This document shows positions 18,501 to 33,145 of a stretch of 34,878 bases of DNA, in pieces. How positions within the stretch are numbered: the first letter of the stretch is position 1; every line of letters starts with the position of its first letter. Below the pieces are notes generated by a model, which was not told the origin of the DNA, made no database searches, and saw only the letters and a list, made by a program, of their open reading frames with translations. The position numbers and the translations under genes are program-made. Origin of the DNA: Candidatus Thiodiazotropha sp. 'RUGA' (lineage in GTDB: Bacteria; Pseudomonadota; Gammaproteobacteria; Chromatiales; Chromatiaceae); contig JAEPDS010000036.1 of the NCBI GenBank assembly GCA_016842065.1, positions 1 through 34,878 of the forward strand. The letters are read 5' to 3'.

Positions 18501-19670
18501 TCAGTCCCATTTCAACGCGCCGCCGGTTTGATATTCGGTGACACGGGTTTCGAAAAAGTTTTTCTCTTTGCGCAGGTTCGCCTGTTCGTCGAGCCAGGGC
18601 AGGGTCGCTTCCGCGCCCGGGAAGGGCTCTTCGATGCCGAGTTGTCTGGCACGGCGGTTGGCGGTGAAGCGGAACTGGCCGATGTGGTCCTCTTTGGAGT
18701 AACCCAGGATCGGATCGCGCAGGATGTAGCCGGCGTAACCGATCTCGGCGGCTTCCGCTTCGTCCCACATCTCACGCATCGCCTGTGGGTCGAGGGTGAT
18801 GTTCTCTTCGAGAATAATCTGTTTCACCACGCGGATGCCGAAGGAGGCGTGCATCACTTCATCACGCATGATGTATTGCAGCTGTTCGGCGGTGCCTTTC
18901 ATCAGGCCGCGACGCTGCAGGGCGAAGATCGGGCTGAAGCCGTTGTAGAACCAGCAGCCTTCGAAGATGGCGGCGAAGTAGATGTAGGCCATGACGAAGT
19001 TCTGTAACTCATTCGGATCGCGCAGGTCGATGTCGGCGCGCAGGATCGAGGAGAGTCGACGGTTGGTGATCTGGATCTTTTTGTTGATCTCCGGAACCAC
19101 CCGATAGCGGTTGTAGATCTCGCCCTGGTCGAGGCCGATGGTCTCGATGCAGTGCTGGTAGGTCCAGGTGTGCAGGGACTCTTCATAGACCTGTCGGGCC
19201 TGATAGATCTGTAACTCAGGCGCGGACATCTTCTCCATCACCGCCAGACCGATGTTGCGCATCGCCAGGATGTCGGAGGTGGTCAGGTAGGAGAGTACGT
19301 TCTCGTAGACGTGACGCTCTTCCAGGGTCAGCTTGTGCTGGTAGTCGTGGACGTCCTGGGCCATGTTGATGTCCAGCGGGGTCCAGTGGTTCTTGTTGGC
19401 GTTGAGGAAGTACTCCCAGGCCCAGGGGTACTTGAAGGGGGCCAGCTGGTTGATGTCGGTCATGCCGTTGATCACCCGCTTGTCATCCGGGTTGACCGGC
19501 TCCATGGAGGTGAGTTCCGGGACTTCTGGCTTGACCTGTTCTTCGATCTGCAGTGCACGCGCCGCCTCTTCCACCACATGAGGATGGACCGGTGCGGTCT
19601 CTGTTACCGCCGGGGCAGGGGCGGTTTCCTGAAGCTTTGGCTTGGCGAGTGGATCATCCCAATTCAGCAT
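18501..19670 (-). CDS. nrdB: Class Ia ribonucleotide reductase small (beta) subunit
   Basis: Radical-generating subunit of aerobic ribonucleotide reductase. Metal ligands can be placed: Asp133 (TTSD), Glu164 and His167 (EESLH), Glu237 (FEGCWFY), Glu271 and His274 (DEVMH). The radical tyrosine is Tyr171, four residues after His167 as in E. coli NrdB, so this is not a tyrosine-less class Ic protein. A proline/alanine/glutamate-rich, probably disordered extension of ~60 residues precedes the core. The ribosome binding site is agagg. It lies 50 bp downstream of nrdA and is probably co-transcribed. Confidence 0.97.
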   Translation of the reverse strand: MLNWDDPLAKPKLQETAPAPAVTETAPVHPHVVEEAARALQIEEQVKPEVPELTSMEPVNPDDKRVINGMTDINQLAPFKYPWAWEYFLNANKNHWTPLDINMAQDVHDYQHKLTLEERHVYENVLSYLTTSDILAMRNIGLAVMEKMSAPELQIYQARQVYEESLHTWTYQHCIETIGLDQGEIYNRYRVVPEINKKIQITNRRLSSILRADIDLRDPNELQNFVMAYIYFAAIFEGCWFYNGFSPIFALQRRGLMKGTAEQLQYIMRDEVMHASFGIRVVKQIILEENITLDPQAMREMWDEAEAAEIGYAGYILRDPILGYSKEDHIGQFRFTANRRARQLGIEEPFPGAEATLPWLDEQANLRKEKNFFETRVTEYQTGGALKWD

Positions 19671-19720
19671 CTCTTATTCCTCTTTTATATTCTGGTTCGC
19701 TTGGTGGTTCCGCTAATCGC

Positions 19721-22606
19721 CTATTGGCAGGCTTCACAGTCCGGGTCGAGAATCGAGCAGGCCTGGGGGGTGTCGCTGCTGTTGCCGCCGATCAGGTCGA
19801 CCCCATTGCCGCCGCTGCTCTCCTGCACCGAGGTCTTCTCCGCGCCGGTGGCGCCCATGGAGCGCAGGTAGTAGGTGGTCTTCAGTCCACGCACCCAGGC
19901 CAGCTTGTAGAGATTGTCGAGCTTCTTGCCCGAGGGCTCGGCCATGTAGAGGTTGAGGGACTGGCCCTGGTCGATCCACTTCTGACGACGGGAGCCGGCT
20001 TCCACCAGCCAGCGTGGGTCGATCTCGAAGGCGGTGGCGTAGATCGCCTTCAGCTCCGCCGGGATGCGGTCGATGGGCTGCAGCGAGCCGTCGTAGTATT
20101 TCAGATCGTTGATCATCACTTCGTCCCACAGGCCGAGCTTCTTCAGATCGTGCACCATGTAGGGGTTGACCACGGTGAACTCACCGGAGAGGTTCGATTT
20201 GACGAACAGGTTCTGGTAGGTGGGTTCGATCGACTGGCTGACACCGCAGATGTTGGAGATGGTGGCGGTCGGCGCGATCGCCATGGTGTTGGAGTTGCGC
20301 ATCCCCTGCAGCTGTACCTTGTCGCGCAGGCTGGCCCAGTCGAGGGTGTGGCTCTCGTCCACCTGCAGGTAGTCGCCACGCTCTGCTTTCAACAGCTTGA
20401 GGGAGTCGATGGGCAGGATGCCCTGGCTCCACAGGGAACCTTCATAGGTGGAGTAGCGGCCACGCTCTTCCGCCAGATCCGATGAGGCCTGGATGGCGTA
20501 GTAGCTGACGGCTTCCATCGCCCGGTCGGCGAAGCCGAGGGCCTCTTCAGAGGTGTAGGCGAGACGCTGTTTATAGAGCGCGTCCTGGAATCCCATGATG
20601 CCGAGGCCCACCGGACGGTGACGCAGGTTGGAGTTTCTCGCCTGGGGCACGCTGTAGTAGTTGTAGTCGATGACGTTGTCGAGCATGCGCATCGCGGTGG
20701 TCACCGTCTTCTCCAGCTTGGCCATGTCGAGGCCATCCTCGGTGGTGTGGGCGGTCAGGTTGACCGAGCCCAGGTTACACACCGCGATCTCCTGATCGTT
20801 GGTGTGCAGGGTGATCTCGGTGCAGAGGTTGGAGCTGTGTACCACGCCCATGTGCTGGTTGCTGTAACGCAGGTTGCAGGGATCCTTGAAGGTGATCCAG
20901 GGGTGACCCGTCTCGAACAGCAGGCCGAGCATCTTGCGCCATAGGTCCATCGCACTGACGGTTTTGTAGATGTCCATCTCGCCCCGGGCGGCCTTCTCTT
21001 CGTAGGCGTTATAGGCTTTTTCGAAGGCCTTGCCGGTGAGGTCGTGCAGGTCGGGGGTCTCGTTGGGGGAGAAGAGGGTCCACTCCTTCTCTTCGGCGAC
21101 CCGCTGCATGAACAGATCGGGGATCCAGTTGGCGGTGTTCATGTCGTGGGTGCGCCGACGCTCGTCACCGGTGTTCTTGCGCAGCTCGATGAACTCCTCG
21201 ATGTCGATGTGCCAGGTCTCCAGGTAGGCACAGACCGCACCTTTGCGCTTGCCGCCCTGGTTCACCGCCACCGCGGTGTCGTTGGCCACCTTGAGGAAGG
21301 GAACCACACCCTGGGACTTGCCGTTGGTGCCTTTGATATGGGCGCCGAGACCGCGCACCCGGGTCCAGTCGTTGCCCAGACCGCCGGCAAACTTGGAGAG
21401 CAGGGCGTTGTCCTTGATGCTGCTGTAGATGCCGTCCAGATCGTCGGCGACGGTGGTCAGGTAGCAGCTGGAGAGCTGCGGACGCAGGGTGCCGGAGTTG
21501 AACAGGGTTGGGGTCGAGCTCATGAAGTCGAACGAGGAGAGCAGGTTGTAGAACTCGATGGCGCGGCCTTCCCGGTCGATCTCATTGATCGCCAGCCCCA
21601 TCGCAACACGCATGAAGAAGGCCTGGGGCAGTTCGAATCGGGTGCCGCTCTCACTGTGGATGAAGTAGCGGTCGTAGAGGGTCTGCAGGCCCAGATAGGT
21701 GAACTGCAGATCCCGCTCCGGTTTGATGGCGCTGATCAGACGATCCAGATCGTATTGACCGAGACGGGTGTCGAGCAGCTCCAGATCCTCCGCCTGCTTG
21801 ATATAGCGTTTGAAGTAGTCGCCGTAGAGACCGGCCATGTCGGCCTGGGTATTCACCGGGGCGTGGACATCGAGGAAACCGAGGGCCTCCCGGCGCAGGA
21901 TGTCGAGCAGCAGGCGGGCGGCGACCTGGGAGTAGTTGGGCTCCTGATCGATCAGGGTGCGGGCGCTCATCACCAGGGTCTGGGAGACGTCGCTCTCCTT
22001 GACCCCATCGAACAGGTTGCGGCAGGCATCCTGCAGGATGCGCGGGGCGTCCACCTCTTCAAAACCGTTGCAGGCCTCTTCCACCAGGGCGTGCAGGCGC
22101 TCCACATCCAATGGACGCTGGCTGCCATCTTCCAGGGTGACGTTGACCCGGTGCTCCTCGGGAATGCCTTCGGTCTCGGCCCGCTTGGCGGCCTCTTCCT
22201 GGCGTTTCAGATTCTGACGTTCACGATAGAGGACGTAGGCGCGCGCCGCCTTGTGCTCACCGGAGCGCATCAGGCAGAGTTCCACCTGATCCTGAATATC
22301 CTCGATGTGGACAGTACCGTTGTCCGCCATACGACGGGTCAGGGTGCTGACCACCTGATCGGTCAGATCCCGTACGGTGTCATGAACCCGGCTTGACGCG
22401 GCCGCACTGCCACCTTCCACCGCAAGAAAGGCCTTGGTCATGGCGACGCTGATCTTACTTGGGTCGAAGTTGGTGACCTTGCCGTTGCGCCGAATCACCT
22501 GGATGCCGCTACTGGGGGTGGATTGACTCTGGCCTGTAGGTTGGTGCATCTCAGGTGGTTGGGGCACTGCAACTGTCACGTCGCTATCGGCTACTGGTGT
22601 CGCCAT
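19721..22606 (-). CDS. nrdA: Class Ia ribonucleotide reductase large (alpha) subunit with two ATP-cones
   Basis: Catalytic subunit reducing ribonucleoside diphosphates. Two ATP-cone regions occur in tandem: the first begins IQVIRRNGKVTNFDPSKI and the second RVNVTLEDGSQRPLDVERLHALVE, an arrangement known from Pseudomonas NrdA, where the first cone gives overall activity control. Catalytic-core segments include FAGGLGNDWTRVRG and NLCTEITLHT. The C-terminal redox pair is DCEACQ. The ATG at 22606 follows a taggag ribosome binding site, giving 961 residues; an upstream ATG at 22639 would add 11 residues and has no such site. Transcription is probably repressed by NrdR (see boxes upstream). Confidence 0.97.
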   Translation of the reverse strand: MATPVADSDVTVAVPQPPEMHQPTGQSQSTPSSGIQVIRRNGKVTNFDPSKISVAMTKAFLAVEGGSAAASSRVHDTVRDLTDQVVSTLTRRMADNGTVHIEDIQDQVELCLMRSGEHKAARAYVLYRERQNLKRQEEAAKRAETEGIPEEHRVNVTLEDGSQRPLDVERLHALVEEACNGFEEVDAPRILQDACRNLFDGVKESDVSQTLVMSARTLIDQEPNYSQVAARLLLDILRREALGFLDVHAPVNTQADMAGLYGDYFKRYIKQAEDLELLDTRLGQYDLDRLISAIKPERDLQFTYLGLQTLYDRYFIHSESGTRFELPQAFFMRVAMGLAINEIDREGRAIEFYNLLSSFDFMSSTPTLFNSGTLRPQLSSCYLTTVADDLDGIYSSIKDNALLSKFAGGLGNDWTRVRGLGAHIKGTNGKSQGVVPFLKVANDTAVAVNQGGKRKGAVCAYLETWHIDIEEFIELRKNTGDERRRTHDMNTANWIPDLFMQRVAEEKEWTLFSPNETPDLHDLTGKAFEKAYNAYEEKAARGEMDIYKTVSAMDLWRKMLGLLFETGHPWITFKDPCNLRYSNQHMGVVHSSNLCTEITLHTNDQEIAVCNLGSVNLTAHTTEDGLDMAKLEKTVTTAMRMLDNVIDYNYYSVPQARNSNLRHRPVGLGIMGFQDALYKQRLAYTSEEALGFADRAMEAVSYYAIQASSDLAEERGRYSTYEGSLWSQGILPIDSLKLLKAERGDYLQVDESHTLDWASLRDKVQLQGMRNSNTMAIAPTATISNICGVSQSIEPTYQNLFVKSNLSGEFTVVNPYMVHDLKKLGLWDEVMINDLKYYDGSLQPIDRIPAELKAIYATAFEIDPRWLVEAGSRRQKWIDQGQSLNLYMAEPSGKKLDNLYKLAWVRGLKTTYYLRSMGATGAEKTSVQESSGGNGVDLIGGNSSDTPQACSILDPDCEACQ

Positions 22607-22823
22607 GTCATCTCCTAATTGTTTTTCGTTGGCGGTCATCGTCGTACAGGATGGCCGGGCCGTGGCCTAACTTTTAAATCTTGTGGTAATTCTGTTGGTC
22701 GTATTTGCCGGCGATTCGTTGTCCGCCGTTTTTACGCAGGTTAACAACCCTGCAGGCCGGGTTTGATTGCCGGTCTTATTGTCTGGCTGGTGAAATCAGG
22801 GTGGTGATGTTCAAAACCAGTAA

Positions 22824-26420: not shown

Positions 26421-27728
26421 TTACATGAAACTATCAGCAGTGATATTGTCGAACCAGCTGTAGGCGTAAGCCACTTCACGCGCCCGCATCTCCGGGGTGG
26501 CGTCGGTTGGGGTCAGACCACCGGAAACCTTGGTGATCTTGGAACCGTCCTCTGCCAGCTTGTAGACTGCAGCAACAGAGATGCCCCAATCCTTGCCGAT
26601 GATGGAGTAGCAGGTGTTGACGTAAGCCGGTGTGCCTGGCTCCTGGCCATTCAGCAGTGCTGCTACGCTGGCTGCACAGACCTTGGCTTCGGAGTTGGCC
26701 GCATAACCGGATTTCGGCATACCCTTGGCGATGGATGCGTCACCAATCACGTGGATGTTCTTGTGAATGGTGGACTCGAAGGTATGCAGGTCGATCGGAC
26801 ACCAGCCGCTGTCATTGGTCAAACCGGCGGCAAAGGCGATCTTGCCTGCTTTCTGGTTTGGAATGATGTTCAGCACATCGGCTTTGATGGTGTCGTCGAA
26901 ACCGGTGGTGACACTCATGGCGCCGGCATCCACTTTGACAACCGCGTTGTCATTGGAGCCCTGAGCACTACCACGCCATTCGATCATGGAGTTGTCGGTC
27001 TCATAGCCATAGAGTGCTTTCCAGCCCTGGGTGAAGAGACCCATCTTGGAGAACTTCGGCTTAGAGTCAAGGATGATGACCTTCGACTTAGGCTTGTGCT
27101 GTTTCATATAGTGAGCGATCTGGGAAGCACGCTCGTAGGGTCCAGGAGGACAGCGGAATGGGTTGCCTGGAGCGGCAATCACCACGGTGCCGCCATCTTT
27201 CATGGCTTCAAGCTGTTTGCGCAAGGTTACGGTCTGAGAGCCGGCTTTCCAGGCATGAGGAATGGTCTCTGCAACCTTTGCGTCATAGCCTTCCAGGGTC
27301 TCCCATTTGAAGTCGACACCTGGGGCAACAATACAACGGTCGTAGTTGAAACTCTGACCGCCTGCGGTTTTAACGGTTTTTGCGCCGGCATCGATGGCGG
27401 TAACCACATCGTGGACCACTTTGACGCCGTGTTTGCCAAGGCCGGAGTAACCGAACTTGATGGAGTTGATACTACGGTCGCCGCTCAGTACTTCATTGGA
27501 CAGATAGCAAGTGTAGTAGTCTTTATTGGCTTCGATCAGGGTGACCTCAATGGTCGGATCGGCCATACGCAGATATTTGGCAGCCGTTGCACCACCGGTA
27601 CCACCACCGACGACCACGACTTTCTTGGAAGCGCCGAGGGCAATATAGGGAGTCCCCATCATGCCGACAGCGGTAGCTGCGCCTGCGCCTTTAACAAAAC
27701 CTCTTCGGGTAATCTTCATGTTTCTCAT
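26421..27728 (-). CDS. fccB: Flavocytochrome c sulfide dehydrogenase, flavoprotein subunit
   Basis: Periplasmic enzyme oxidising sulfide and passing electrons to its cytochrome subunit. A Tat signal (TRRGFVKG) is followed by the FAD-binding [17 protein letters not shown]. Cys74 (YYTCYLSN) fits the covalent flavin attachment and Cys193 (FRCPPGPYE) the first redox-active cysteine; both are offset by 32 from the Allochromatium mature numbering (42, 161) as I recall it. Cys373 (NTCYS) is the likely disulfide partner. Length 435 is normal. The start may instead be the ATG at 27719. It lies 7 bp after fccA, so the two are co-transcribed. Confidence 0.95.
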
Positions 27729-27735
27729 TCCCCTC

Positions 27736-28350
27736 TTATTTTTGGCCTGAGGCGTAGAAGTGGTTCAGAGCGTCGATTCCAGCGTCGCCCTCTTTCTTCA
27801 GCAGTTGATTAACCTTCTTCTTCATCTTCTTGGTCATCTCGCGATCACCAGATTTGAAGTCGGCCATGGTGTACTCCAGATAGGGGACTAACTGACCCAT
27901 CAGGATGCCGGAGTCGTCATCGGGAGAGGTGCCGTTGTCCGCATGACACTTCTCACAATATTTATCATGCAGCTTGGCGCCTTTTTTGGCTTTAGCGGGA
28001 TCAAAATCCTGCTTGGCCATAACAAAGGGCTGTTTACTGAAGAATTCACCCATCGCCTTGATCTCGTCATCGGTATAACCTTTGGCGATACGGGTCATGA
28101 TGGTGGAATTGATATCACCCGCTTTGAAGCCTTGCATGACTTCTTCGAAATAGACGGCAGACATGCCACCGATAGAGGGTGAAGCGGGACCGATACTGGC
28201 GCCATTGGTACCATGGCAGCCGGCACAGGTGTTTGCCAGCATGGCAGCACTGGCACCCGACATCAGGGGTTTGTCAGCAGCGAAAGCCGCAGATGATGCA
28301 CTGAGGGCCAGTGCGCCGATCAGGGCTCTCTTGAGATTTTTGTACGCCAT
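27736..28350 (-). CDS. fccA: Flavocytochrome c sulfide dehydrogenase, dihaem cytochrome subunit
   Basis: 204-residue periplasmic cytochrome with Sec signal (ending SSAAFA, ~24) and two haem sites: CAGCH (Cys42-His46) and CEKCH (Cys132-His136). The dihaem form is that of purple sulfur bacteria, in contrast to the monohaem FccA of green sulfur bacteria. The strong site aaggaggt precedes the ATG. fccB follows after 7 bp. It accepts electrons from the FccB flavin and passes them to soluble cytochromes. The upstream 193 bp hold a hairpin (28494-28500 with 28507-28513) that may end the ankyrin-gene transcript. Confidence 0.93.
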
Positions 28351-28543
28351 GTTACCTCCTTTGGTATTTAAACAGGCTTACACTAGTTTCAACAGGGAAC
28401 ATGACGAACCCTGTCACACGAACCGGAGCAGTAATATGGGACTGTTCCTGTTGCGTTCAGCTTGGAAGGAGGCGTTATTGCTCATTTATAAGCCGTCTTT
28501 TTTTACAAAGACGTGCCGGTCTCCACCCAGGCTTATGCTCTTT

Positions 28544-29476
28544 TTATTTTAAAAGGCCTGAAACTTTATTGTGTTTCTTCTTCACCGCGATATCAGCCGC
28601 GGTATGTCCTTCGTTATCTTTATTCGTTTTGTCTGCGTTGTGCTGCAGCAGCAGCGTGACAATCTCTTCCGAGCCGGTACGGGCCGCTTCCATCAATGGT
28701 GTGACACCATCGTTATCGGCCAGGTTGACATCAGCGCCGGCGTCCAGCAGCAGTTTGACACTCTCCAGCTGATCCTGGCCTACCGCCCAGATCAGTGCTG
28801 TCGCGCCATCGTTATCCTGCTTGTTGATCTCGGCTTTGTAAGAGAGCAGGGTTTTGACCGTCTCCAGATGACCCTGATCAGCCGCCAGGATCAGTGCGGT
28901 GGAGCCGTTTTTATCCCGGCTGTTTACATCGGCATGGTGCTTGGCCAGCATGGCGACCGTCTCTGCATGGCCTTTTTCCGCAGCCATCATCAACGCATTA
29001 TGCCCATGCTTGTCGGATGCTTTGGGGTCGGCGCCTTTGAACAGCAGCTGCTCAACCATATCGGTGATGCCGTAGCGTGCCGCAATCATCAGGGCGTCCC
29101 ATCCGGCACGGGTTCGGTCGTGCAGATTGGCGCCCCGCTCCAGCAGCATGGCGGTAAGTGCCGGGTGACCGTTCTCCGCTGCAAAGGTCAGCGCGCTGCA
29201 ACCGGCTACGGTGCGGGCATTCACGTTGGCGCCCCGGTTCAACAGGATGACAACGGCTTCAAAATTGTTGTTCTCTACAGCAATCATCAAGGCGTTTTTG
29301 CCGAATTTGTTCGCACTGTCAGGTGAAACGCCCTTATCCAGAAGCTTGGTGACAGTTTCCACATCACCAACATCCGCTGCAAGCCGCAGTTCCCTCTCAT
29401 CTTCAGCGCTTCCCGCCATAACCTGTGCAGTCAGCAGCAATGTGAGTGTGGCAATTAACAGTCTGGTTGTTTTCAT
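28544..29476 (-). CDS. Exported ankyrin-repeat protein
   Basis: 310 residues: a signal peptide (~1-21, ending VMAG) and then about eight consecutive ankyrin repeats through to the C-terminus, each with the G-x-x-ALMIAA/ALILAA helix pattern (for example GKNALMIAVENNNFEAVVILL). Ankyrin stacks mediate protein-protein contact; export puts this one in the periplasm. No catalytic domain is present. It sits between a tetrahaem cytochrome gene (52 bp upstream) and fccAB in the same direction, so it may be an assembly or scaffold factor for these redox proteins, but that is inference. Confidence 0.9.
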   Translation of the reverse strand: MKTTRLLIATLTLLLTAQVMAGSAEDERELRLAADVGDVETVTKLLDKGVSPDSANKFGKNALMIAVENNNFEAVVILLNRGANVNARTVAGCSALTFAAENGHPALTAMLLERGANLHDRTRAGWDALMIAARYGITDMVEQLLFKGADPKASDKHGHNALMMAAEKGHAETVAMLAKHHADVNSRDKNGSTALILAADQGHLETVKTLLSYKAEINKQDNDGATALIWAVGQDQLESVKLLLDAGADVNLADNDGVTPLMEAARTGSEEIVTLLLQHNADKTNKDNEGHTAADIAVKKKHNKVSGLLK

Positions 29477-29528
29477 GAATTATCTACAAACCCTGGTATA
29501 AAAAAACGGTTGTGTCAGATAGTGACAA

Positions 29529-30095
29529 TCATGGTGTATCAGGTTCTTCGGGCTCATCCGGCTCCTCATGTGCGACACCTGCGTGACAATCGATACATGC
29601 CTTGCCTTCGTCCATGGCCTTCGGGTGGCGTTTGCGGGCACTGCGATCCTGTTCGCTCAGATCCATATTTTCAAACTCGTGGCACGAGCGACACTCTCTG
29701 GAATTTGAAGCACGCATTTTGTCCCATACCCGGTTGGCCATATCCCAACGGTGGGCCTCGTACTTCTCTTTGGTATCAATGGTGCCCATGATCTCGTGAT
29801 AGACATCTTTGGCAGCCATTACCTTGGCGATCATCTTCGGAATAAAAGGTTCGGGTACATGGCAGTCTGCACAGGTTGCCTGGACGCCTGATGCATTCTT
29901 ATAGTGCAATGTCTCTTTGTACTCCTCCAGATTGACCTTCATGGAGTGACAGGAGGTGCAGAATTCCATTTCATTGGTATAGGCCATTCCCATGCTGAAT
30001 AGCCCGGAAAAGATGATGCCGGCAACAAAAATGATGCCGACCAGTATCAAAGATATCTTGCCTGCGGACTTTCTGGCCGCGCGCTCTCTGAACAT
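29529..30095 (-). CDS. NapC/NirT-family tetrahaem cytochrome c
   Basis: 188-residue membrane-anchored quinol dehydrogenase. One transmembrane helix (~14-37) is followed by four haem sites: CTSCH (46-50), CADCH (75-79), CRSCH (135-139) and CIDCH (167-171). The family takes electrons from menaquinol/ubiquinol and hands them to periplasmic reductases. The C-terminal tail is acidic and proline-rich (EEPDEPEEPDTP). No reductase partner is encoded nearby, so its acceptor is unknown. The start at 30095 is preferred (gaggg upstream); an ATG at 30164 would add 23 polar, basic residues. The ankyrin gene follows after 52 bp. Confidence 0.92.
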   Translation of the reverse strand: MFRERAARKSAGKISLILVGIIFVAGIIFSGLFSMGMAYTNEMEFCTSCHSMKVNLEEYKETLHYKNASGVQATCADCHVPEPFIPKMIAKVMAAKDVYHEIMGTIDTKEKYEAHRWDMANRVWDKMRASNSRECRSCHEFENMDLSEQDRSARKRHPKAMDEGKACIDCHAGVAHEEPDEPEEPDTP

Positions 30096-30288
30096 ACTCC
30101 ACCCTCTGTGTCGGAAAAGTTTTCCTTTTCCTTGTCGTTTGTTTGTTGTCCCCCCTATTTCCATACAGGTAGAGGCATTTTTCTTGACTGTGGGATGTTA
30201 CGTCAACTCGGTAGCCAATGCAAAAAATACTATGTAAACAAACTCATATGACTGTATTAGTAGAAACTAATCAGGAACCCGCTATCGC

Positions 30289-30933: not shown

Positions 30934-31116
30934 TCAGGGGTGTGGCGTGAGCCTGTTGGGTTTGCTGGATAGGGGCTCCTGGTAGCAGAGGCGTTCCGCC
31001 TGCTCCGCCTGTTTGCCTGGATTGAAAGCAGAGATCGGGCGGTGATAACCCATCACCCGGGTCCAGACTTCACAACGGGTGCGTTCTTCATCTTTCAGTT
31101 CAATTGCTTTGTTCAT
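30934..31116 (-). CDS. Separate glycyl-radical segment of anaerobic ribonucleotide reductase
   Basis: 60-residue ORF containing EVWTRVMGYHRPISAFNPGKQ, which corresponds to the C-terminal glycyl-radical loop of NrdD; the radical glycine would be Gly23 in RVMGY. The main NrdD ORF ends just before where this segment should be. The ATG at 31116 lies inside the nrdD end, overlapping its stop codon by 17 bases in another frame, and is preceded by an aggag ribosome binding site within the nrdD coding sequence, pointing to translational coupling. nrdG follows after 6 bp. A frameshift or assembly error splitting one NrdD is the alternative, made less likely by the well-placed start signals. Confidence 0.82.
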   Translation of the reverse strand: MNKAIELKDEERTRCEVWTRVMGYHRPISAFNPGKQAEQAERLCYQEPLSSKPNRLTPHP

Positions 31117-33145
31117 TGAGTTGCTCCTGTAGTTTCTGTTCACGCAGGTGTTGGTCGCACTCCGGGCAGAACTCATGTTCACCACTCAGGTAGCCGTGAA
31201 CAGGACAGATGGAAAAGGTCGGGGTGATGGTCAGATAGGGGAGACGAAACTTCTGCAGGGATCGTTTGATCAGGTTCTTGCAGGCCTGAGTGCTGCTGAT
31301 GCGCTCATTCATATAGAGGTGAAGAACGGTCCCACCGGTATATTTGCACTGCAGGGGCTCCTGATGTTGCAAGGCAGCAAACGGATCCTCGGTGTAGCCG
31401 ACCGGCAGTTGGGTTGAGTTGGTGTAGTAGGGTGTCTGCGGGGTTCCGGCCTGCAGAATGCCGGGAAACCGTTGGCGGTCGATCTTGGCGAAGCGATAGG
31501 TGGCGCCTTCTGCCGGCGTCGCCTCCAGGTTGTAGAGATGTCCACTCTGCTCCTGGAAGCTCACCATCCGCTCGCGGATGTGGTCGAGAAACCGTTCTGC
31601 CAGCGCCTTGCCCTCAGGATCGGCGATATCCCAGCGATCGGCGCTGAAGTTGCGGATCATCTCATTGACGCCGTTGATGCCGATGGTGGAGAAGTGATTG
31701 CGCAGGGTGCCCAGGTACCTTTTTGTATAGGGAAAAAGGCCGGCGTCCATGTGGCGCTGAATGACCTTTCTTTTGATTTCCAGGCTGTTACGGGCCAGGC
31801 GCAGGAGATCGTCGGCGGCTTTCAGCAGCCCGGCTTCATCCTCGGTAAACTGCTGGCCGAGACGCGCGCAGTTGAGGGTGACCACGCCGATGGAGCCAGT
31901 CTGTTCGGCCGATCCGAACAGGCCGTTGCCCCGTTTCAGCAGCTCCCGCAGGTCGAGTTGCAGTCGGCAGCACATGGAGCGTACCTGGTGCGGGCTCAGC
32001 TCGGAATTGAGAAAGTTCTGGAAATAGGGCAGGCCATACTTGGCGGTCATGCGGAACAGTCGTTCGGCATTCTCGCTCTCCCAGGGGAAATCGGCGGTGA
32101 TGTTGTAGGTCGGGATGGGGAAGGTGAAGACCCGGTCTTTCGCATCCCCCTCGGTCATCACCTCGATATAGGCGCGATTGATCAGATCCATTTCGGTCTG
32201 CAGCTCACCATAGGTGAAGGGCATCTCCACACCGCCAATCAGAGGAACCTGCTGGCGCAGATCCTCCGGGCAGACCCAATCGAAGGTGAGATTGGTAAAC
32301 GGCGTCTGGGTGCCCCAGCGGGAGGGGACGTTGAGGTTGTAGATCAGCTCCTGGATCGCCTGTTTGATCTGGCTGTAGCTGAGATTGTCCTTGCGAATGA
32401 AGGGCGCCAGGTAGGTATCGAAGGAGCTGAATGCCTGGGCTCCCGCCCACTCATTCTGCAGGGTCCCCAGAAAGTTGACGATCTGACCGACAGCACTGGA
32501 GAGGTGTTTGGGGGGTGAGGACTCGACCTTGCCTGGAACGCCATTGAGTCCCTCGTGCAGCAGGGTCCGCAGCGACCAGCCTGCACAGTAACCGGCCAGC
32601 ATATCCAGGTCATGAACATGCAGAGCGCCGTTTCGGTGAGCCTCGCCGATCTCCGGTGGATAGACATGATTCAGCCAGTAGTTGGCGATCATTTTGCCGG
32701 AGGTGTTAAGGATCAGGCCGCCGAGGGAGTAGCCCTGGTTGGCATTGGCGCTGACCCGCCAGTCGCTTCGCTGCAGATACTCGTTCACCGAGCTGGCGAC
32801 GTCGAGCAGGGTGCGTTGATCCTGGCGCAGCTTTTTATGTTGCTCACGGTAGACGATATAGGCCCGGGCCGTCTGCAGGTGGTTGGCGCTGATCAACACC
32901 TGTTCCACCACGTCCTGTATTCGCTCGATGTCGGGATTACTCTGCCGATAGCCGGTGTGGGTCAGGACTTTTACCACCTGGGCGGTGATCAAGGCGGCCT
33001 CTTGATCGTCAAATTCACCGCTGGCTTGGGCGGCCAGCAGGATGGCGTTGTGAATTTTTGCGGGATCGAAATCCGCTTCGCTGCCATCTCTTTTGACGAT
33101 TTTGCTGGGTGTGCGGAGTCTCTGTCGCCCAATGGTGGCTTGCAT
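31100..33145 (-). CDS. nrdD: Anaerobic (class III) ribonucleoside-triphosphate reductase, main chain lacking the glycyl-radical loop
   Basis: 681 residues. An N-terminal ATP-cone (~13-105, KIVKRDGSEADFDPAKIHNAI) is followed by the ten-stranded barrel core, with NLTFDWVCPEDL and FPIPTYNI, and a C-terminal zinc site (CPVH 647-650, CPEC 660-663). The chain ends 18 residues after the zinc site (LQEQLNEQSN), before any RVxGY radical motif. That motif is on the overlapping 60-residue ORF, so both products seem needed for activity. It acts in anoxic cytoplasm and reduces NTPs. Paired NrdR boxes upstream indicate repression by NrdR. Confidence 0.93.
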   Translation of the reverse strand: MQATIGRQRLRTPSKIVKRDGSEADFDPAKIHNAILLAAQASGEFDDQEAALITAQVVKVLTHTGYRQSNPDIERIQDVVEQVLISANHLQTARAYIVYREQHKKLRQDQRTLLDVASSVNEYLQRSDWRVSANANQGYSLGGLILNTSGKMIANYWLNHVYPPEIGEAHRNGALHVHDLDMLAGYCAGWSLRTLLHEGLNGVPGKVESSPPKHLSSAVGQIVNFLGTLQNEWAGAQAFSSFDTYLAPFIRKDNLSYSQIKQAIQELIYNLNVPSRWGTQTPFTNLTFDWVCPEDLRQQVPLIGGVEMPFTYGELQTEMDLINRAYIEVMTEGDAKDRVFTFPIPTYNITADFPWESENAERLFRMTAKYGLPYFQNFLNSELSPHQVRSMCCRLQLDLRELLKRGNGLFGSAEQTGSIGVVTLNCARLGQQFTEDEAGLLKAADDLLRLARNSLEIKRKVIQRHMDAGLFPYTKRYLGTLRNHFSTIGINGVNEMIRNFSADRWDIADPEGKALAERFLDHIRERMVSFQEQSGHLYNLEATPAEGATYRFAKIDRQRFPGILQAGTPQTPYYTNSTQLPVGYTEDPFAALQHQEPLQCKYTGGTVLHLYMNERISSTQACKNLIKRSLQKFRLPYLTITPTFSICPVHGYLSGEHEFCPECDQHLREQKLQEQLNEQSN

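Follow-up and report, generated by a model that had tools for sequence, protein, structure and literature searches.

Gene organization of the nrdD locus

The window, a stretch of 34,878 nucleotides from Candidatus Thiodiazotropha sp. 'RUGA' (contig JAEPDS010000036.1), carries on its reverse strand three consecutive genes related to class III ribonucleotide reductase. The first, nrdD (33145-31100, with the stop codon TGA at 31102-31100), encodes a main chain of 681 aa (77.2 kDa) with an ATP-cone, a barrel and a zinc site. It matches NF006126 (1124.8 bits against a cut-off of 548, model positions 3-651 of 684) and, in the ATP-cone, PF03477 (83.6 bits). The finger-loop motif MCCR (residues 391-394, 31964-31975) is the expected site of the thiyl radical, a role given in passages of PMC9669993, and the motif CPVH...CPEC (C647, H650, C660 and C663, 31157-31207) would bind zinc, as in the family. 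Judged from its sequence alone, the chain has the barrel, ATP-cone, finger-loop cysteine and zinc site of a class III NrdD; the glycyl-radical loop is absent from it and sits on a separate ORF of 60 aa.

This small ORF (30934-31116, 7.0 kDa), a standalone glycyl-radical domain, starts with the ATG at 31116-31114 and stops at 30936-30934. It overlaps nrdD by 17 nt (31100-31116), and its own ribosome-binding site, AGGAG, lies within nrdD at 31128-31124, 7 nt before the ATG; the overlap and the ribosome site suggest coupled translation. The radical loop RVMGYHRP is encoded at 31059-31036, with the codon of Gly23 at 31050-31048. After a gap of 6 nt follows nrdG (30927-30289, 212 aa), a radical-SAM activase of the NrdG2 type (TIGR02495, E 3.5e-56, 189.6 bits against a cut-off of 131.15). 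An earlier note on this DNA had described the overlap, the AGGAG, the ATG inside nrdD and the separate loop-bearing ORF ahead of nrdG, and all of these were found as described. Its placing of the nrdD end just after the zinc site needs one correction, as 18 residues separate C663 from the C-terminus.

The match to PF13597 (NRDD) is divided over both chains: profile positions 2-530 of 562 fall on nrdD (580.6 bits) and positions 532-562 on the small ORF (30.8 bits, cut-off 26.2), so that the family model continues from one chain into the other. At E ≤ 1, the small ORF has no other Pfam match than PF13597 and a weak one to DUF6191 (E 0.29).

The same window contains class I ribonucleotide reductase genes (18507-22639, reverse strand), which some 7.7 kb separate from those of class III, encoding a large chain of 971 aa with an ATP-cone and a small chain of 388 aa. 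Beside the reductase genes (26424-30164, reverse strand) lie genes for a flavocytochrome c sulfide dehydrogenase flavoprotein, an ankyrin-repeat protein (310 aa) and a NapC/NirT cytochrome, a neighbourhood in line with a sulfur-oxidising symbiont.

Conservation and separateness of the small gene

Of the 22 genomes of the window's genus (G000-G021), 20 gave a match to the small ORF, at E 1.6e-15 or better; G012 and G014 gave none. Among all 56 relatives searched, 34 gave a match at E ≤ 0.1, the weakest of which are probably due to chance. The loci L001-L021, comprising 19 loci of the genus together with L012 and L021, which belong to different genera within the family, and leaving out the broken locus L025 of G017, were compared with each other. 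A loose Shine-Dalgarno motif precedes the start of the small ORF in all 21, and the pairwise dN/dS has a median of 0.11 and a maximum of 0.26 (170 of the 210 pairs, with dS of 0.1-2). The overlap with nrdD measures 17 nt in 16 of the 19 genus loci and 8 nt in the other three. The small ORF is a real gene under purifying selection.

In L025 (G017:C71), frame changes appear to interrupt both nrdD and the small ORF, which would fit either ongoing loss of the anaerobic reductase in that genome or a faulty assembly. Given this locus and the missing matches in G012 and G014, the split system can be lost or missed. Decay of both genes in G017 would also suit a reading of the large chain as a dead remnant and the small ORF as its leftover. 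This is very improbable, as the finger loop reads MCCR in 178 of 184 split rows (a count in which one locus may recur; the large chain of a split row lacks the glycine loop by rule of classification), and 168 of the 184 keep all four zinc ligands and 13 the half site of a second kind of split, described below.

A profile of 13 aligned small proteins, searched against genome contigs, gave at least 580 confirmed relatives, and the best 80, chosen by likeness to the small protein and two motifs, were kept as named loci. Of these best 80 of at least 580, 73 are split with nrdD upstream, none is fused, and in 7 the flank examined shows no upstream nrdD; since the loci were picked by similarity, this share is no census. 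The small gene is followed by nrdG in 72 of the 73. The set includes Chromatiales, Thiobacillus, Cupriavidus, Pseudomonas (split at L063, L105, L110 and L114), Stutzerimonas (S. stutzeri, split at L088 and L108), Stenotrophomonas, Chromobacterium, Rhodospira and Thioglobus, and it also takes in MAGs labelled Omnitrophota, Verrucomicrobia and Actinobacteria, labels that may hide contamination. The earlier note had proposed searching related genomes for a truncated NrdD followed by a small RVMGY-type ORF, and both the genus and the named loci bear out that layout.

In wider samples, the small-protein profile matched 36 of 369 genomes of the window's class (E ≤ 0.001), and 30 loci examined out of 37 class matches comprised 27 split, 1 fused and 2 without nrdD in reach. 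Of the 398 genomes sampled in the window's phylum, 16 exceeded the NF006126 cut-off, 13 of them split (G693 with unlinked genes) and 3 fused (G047, G088, G759). In the phylum of the Actinobacteria-named MAG G810, 9 of 246 genomes exceeded this cut-off, 2 split (G810, G1058) and 7 fused. L147 of G180 has a short small ORF, its genome has no NF006126 match over the cut-off, and the locus was placed in no class.

The split also occurs on plasmids of Cupriavidus necator H16 (pHG1), Bradyrhizobium and Sulfuricurvum, where the annotation calls both pieces reductase, and the one-chain form on plasmids of Acidiphilium, Actinomyces and Geoalkalibacter. The suggestion in the earlier note that such ORFs occur beside nrdD elsewhere proved right, several plasmid annotations already naming one nrdD. 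The large chain of C. necator is of 76.2 kDa, in agreement with the size of NrdD that Siedow et al. reportedly gave in 1999. According to passages of PMC2864759, NrdDG is essential in C. necator H16 for complete denitrification; since the pHG1 locus is split, the split enzyme most likely works in the living cell. The same passages give NrdDG of C. metallidurans as Rmet_5137 and Rmet_5139, and the skipped number between them would fit a small gene.

The differing frames and the short overlap in the window might suggest a single gene broken by sequencing error or mutation. We regard this as extremely improbable, as the same layout recurs in the genus relatives and in 73 of the 80 named loci (best 80 of at least 580), and the distance from the nrdD stop to the small-protein start, extrapolated from the alignment, ranges from -28 to +583 nt (L077, with a broken nrdD frame, being excluded). 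The low dN/dS likewise speaks against an error. Of the two findings named in the earlier note as counting against a split, fusion in close relatives and a missing base, neither holds.

Programmed frameshifting or readthrough, joining both frames into one chain, is hardly more credible. It could draw on the 23 of the 73 split named loci in which the small gene is in the frame of nrdD, 19 of these behind a single stop; however, spacer length and frame vary, a few spacers hold several stops, and within the genus set each small ORF begins at a start codon of its own, with a ribosome site before it. Moreover, unlinked copies cannot be joined in this way. In the Holosporaceae MAGs G779-G781, the small gene and nrdG lie together, and nrdD, on a different contig, ends after its zinc site without a radical loop following it; in G693 nrdD is about 9 kb from the small gene and nrdG. 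Since spacers vary and the small gene lies away from nrdD in these four genomes, error, frameshifting and readthrough are untenable.

For all 7 named loci without an upstream nrdD, the genome has an NF006126 match over the cut-off elsewhere, and plasmid pALVIN01 of Allochromatium vinosum carries a small gene without an adjoining nrdD. A single small-gene copy is present in 39 of the 41 genomes of named loci, with extras in G789 and G826. We found one linked small gene and an extra copy elsewhere in each of G782-G785, the genomes of four of these 7 loci, and further extra copies in G300, G1073 (two extra) and G1080. The unlinked extra copies match the host's own type of split: those of G1073 and G1080 keep a fourth zinc cysteine, as in the second kind, whereas G300 and G782-G784 have copies of the first kind. 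In L302 (G1073:C25), the radical loop stands at the N-terminus of a 175-aa ORF that runs on into a lipoprotein-like stretch, and L393 looks similar. Near L303 (G1080:C3), the peptide VSNPLRLEGD recurs in ORF translations, a pattern that could stem from a CRISPR-like array.

A second kind of split and its evolutionary history

In the phylum searched around the Verrucomicrobia MAG G815, 64 of 145 genomes exceeded the NF006126 cut-off. The loci examined there comprised fused forms; splits like those above, here called the first kind (L251-L259, L271 and, in G815 itself, L267); and, at 14 loci (L260-L266, L268-L270, L274-L276, L278), splits of a second kind. The large chain of the second kind ends like ...CPVHGYIPGxHxxCPLE, with variants, and its small chain begins like MAKCGEKTEVYSRVCGYFRP, so that the break lies inside the zinc site and the fourth cysteine is on the small protein. 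In the alignment, the fourth zinc cysteine of fused kin falls at the start of the second-kind small chain, from which we infer that the zinc site of the second kind would bridge two chains.

Trees were built by a quick method with one support measure on thinned rows (173 classified, then 114, then 78), the second tree also without L222, L210, L285, L037, L205, L163, L160, L170, L174, L064 and L267. The 14 second-kind rows formed one clade (SH-aLRT 100). The first kind formed one clade as well (support 99), enclosing three fused rows, L035, L036 and L162, which indicates that separation is not needed for function. Fused L035 and L036 retain the longer linker of the split form and its CEVW signature, suggesting that these two arose by re-fusion.

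A single clade of all split rows was rejected by the AU test (p 2.6e-55). Two further groupings were defined post hoc from the tree topology: one clade of first-kind rows minus the fused L035, L036 and L162 was rejected (p 2.9e-5), and one clade of both kinds including these three was not (p 0.485). Because of the latter, a single fission, followed by re-fusions and a moved break, is a possible history.

Phage copies and a proposed role of the small chain

Searches of IMG/VR gave 164 relatives with the first-kind alignment, of which the best 80, near-copies included, were analyzed. In these best 80 of 164, the frame that contains the domain is no longer than 362 codons, and neither nrdD nor nrdG was found at any of them in the flanking stretch examined; each of the 50 whole records among them has one PF13597 match, to the C-terminal piece. 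The second-kind alignment gave 155 relatives. Its best 80 of 155, on 78 contigs, comprised 74 standalone domains, 5 with nrdD (4 as fused NrdD and L417 as a separate gene) and L393, where the domain lies in a 263-codon frame without nrdD. A loose fourth-cysteine pattern fits 70 of these 80 loci, and at L434 and L435, among the 74 standalone, a stop cuts the domain just behind the loop. Of 50 whole second-kind records, picked for having no nrdD in the stretch examined, 49 hold the small domain alone, two of them twice. In the remaining one, the 188-kb record behind L450, the large chain ends CPVHGYIPGDHETCPYDT, a half zinc site, and the small chain, which begins MPCNQPCERYSRVCGYYRP, is encoded at a distance of 69 kb. 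The partner is thus absent from 99 of 100 viral records searched whole, although IMG/VR records may be fragments.

Of 30 ORFs from 12 first-kind viral loci, 20 matched PHROGs at E ≤ 1e-5. Virion genes (tail, head, portal, tape measure) occur at L349, L382, L312, L332 and L306; polymerase, clamp loader and UvsX-like genes at L338; a helicase at L379; and an endolysin at L364. The phage context is weaker at L371 and L354; the match at L352 is to a family without known function, and the two ORFs of L316 gave no match. Among the unlinked extra bacterial copies, phage-gene neighbours were shown for three: orphan L075 lies beside endolysin, tail-type and integrase genes, L085 beside endolysin and integrase genes, and L121 beside a RecT-like gene. 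L091 has, by eye, no phage genes alongside, and the single ORF checked beside L302 had no PHROGs match. The small chain thus appears to be carried by prophages and phages. The best PHROG of the window's small protein is phrog_4132 (E 3e-8), listed with unknown function. In INPHARED, queried with the window's protein and one phage copy, no close match was found, the matches being two annotated NrdD genes and one unannotated record.

In class III reductases, NrdG makes the glycyl radical, which is then transferred to the finger-loop cysteine. We propose that the locus very probably encodes a class III reductase of two chains with its activase, and that the radical subunit works in trans and has phages among its carriers. 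The two-chain reading of the earlier note is strongly supported: as the genes are unlinked in the three Holosporaceae MAGs, one other genome and one viral record, the pieces must meet in trans. The window retains every part of such an enzyme, distributed over two chains, and a complex of the large and the small chain is the most economical model. The large chain would supply the nucleotide-binding sites, barrel, finger-loop cysteines and zinc site, without a radical glycine, and the 60-residue chain would bring the glycine loop. The small chain most likely receives its glycyl radical from NrdG, probably when already docked on the large chain, and the radical would then pass to the finger-loop cysteine, as expected from one-chain NrdD. 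Because it works in trans, the small chain can be encoded elsewhere in the genome. An AlphaFold2 model of a linked proxy, L051 read through its stop, recovered the fold (mean pLDDT 77.7), with low confidence in the glycine-loop stretch (block means of about 50-55), and its best Foldseek matches are the class III reductases 9d3x, 8p23, 4u3e and 1h7a.

Prophage and phage copies would, on this model, give a fresh radical subunit to the large chain of the host, and such a donation would be a cheap way to raise the host's dNTP supply. We lean towards the view that the radical subunit is mobile and exchangeable, having been split off in two ways, one of them sharing the zinc site, and that phages carry it to charge or revive the host's large chain, one large viral record holding the whole two-piece enzyme with unlinked genes.

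As a reason for the split, adaptation to oxygen, with a consumable small chain swapped after oxygen cleavage and the large chain spared, is an attractive reading that we hold to be possible but not the likelier one. YfiD and T4 Y06I do so for pyruvate formate-lyase (PFL), according to passages of PMC8683613, and copies beyond the linked one occur in G300, G782-G785, G789, G826, G1073 and G1080. On the other hand, the small gene is single-copy in nearly all genomes of named loci, as given above, and COX1, a coarse proxy for oxygen with at most 3 independent pairs on the tree, is present in 19 of 46 split as compared with 11 of 28 fused genomes (Fisher p = 1; 75 genomes picked from those already classified, 74 counted, G1077 dropped). 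Within the G815 phylum, the proportions were 1 of 22 split and 7 of 19 fused. Oxygen-driven splitting, tested in this way, showed no association. Separate control of the large chain and the radical subunit is an alternative reason for splitting.

It is also conceivable, though rather unlikely, that the phage orphan copies do not serve the host enzyme, and either inhibit it, as a decoy for NrdG or a dead-end subunit, or serve another glycyl radical enzyme. The missing partner in 99 of 100 whole viral records, the truncation of L434 and L435, and a Cys-rich N-terminal extension on some copies are consistent with this. Against it, the glycine loop is kept, and the unlinked extra copies in bacteria match the host's kind of split, only L075, L085 and L121 among them being shown to lie beside phage genes. 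The Cys-rich extension, seen in the viral or extra copies L307, L331, L359, L367, L381, L328, L336 and L104, is possibly a metal site.

The proposed two-chain reductase can be set beside several known systems. One-chain class III reductases (E. coli, T4, Thermotoga maritima, Prevotella copri) have in common with it the barrel, finger loop, zinc site, glycine loop, NrdG and, in many, the ATP-cone; here, in contrast, the glycine loop is on a second polypeptide, and the zinc site of the second kind would be common to two chains. In passages of PMC9669993 and PMC4009431, a single class III chain contains both the radical glycine and its cysteine. PMC4009431 describes class III as NrdD and NrdG, the radical being located in the C-terminal domain of the former. 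It also notes the split class II reductase of Pseudomonas aeruginosa, NrdJa/NrdJb, which is likewise made from two consecutive ORFs (PMC4009431, PMC4520616); that system is a B12 enzyme of another class without a glycyl radical. The accessory subunits of BSS and HPAD are likewise small extra subunits on glycyl radical enzymes, but, in the excerpted text of PMC12590467, they bind FeS clusters and the glycine stays on the catalytic chain.

The comparison with YfiD/GrcA drawn in the earlier note is apt as an idea. Like YfiD/GrcA and T4 Y06I, the small ORF is a small standalone protein with a glycyl-radical loop that would act in trans, and a phage version exists (passages of PMC8683613 and, on vs.6, of PMC1524935). 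However, the partner here is NrdD, not PFL, and the small ORF has no Pfam match at E ≤ 1 to the PFL-type Gly_radical family. What YfiD supplies to PFL is a part that this enzyme originally possessed, whereas split NrdD chains never carry the glycine, and the window's NrdD has no glycine loop of its own for O2 cleavage to remove. Passages of PMC8683613 name YfiD and Y06I as the only validated spare parts and allow that others may exist. Searches of the open-access literature, with subscription papers largely outside their scope, yielded no account of a class III reductase in split form, nor of a spare part for a ribonucleotide reductase.

Ribonucleotide reductases are essential, and the two-piece form makes an overlooked design of such an enzyme testable: with a natural two-chain form, activase access to the glycine, turnover of the radical subunit and entry of the loop into the barrel can be probed on a mixture of two purified proteins. 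The question raised in PMC8683613, in the text excerpted from it, of spare parts for other glycyl radical enzymes likewise becomes testable, and the phage copies, with their best PHROG of unknown function, would gain a function. Two IMG/VR records carry two differing standalone second-kind copies each, L392 with L394 and L386 with L409.
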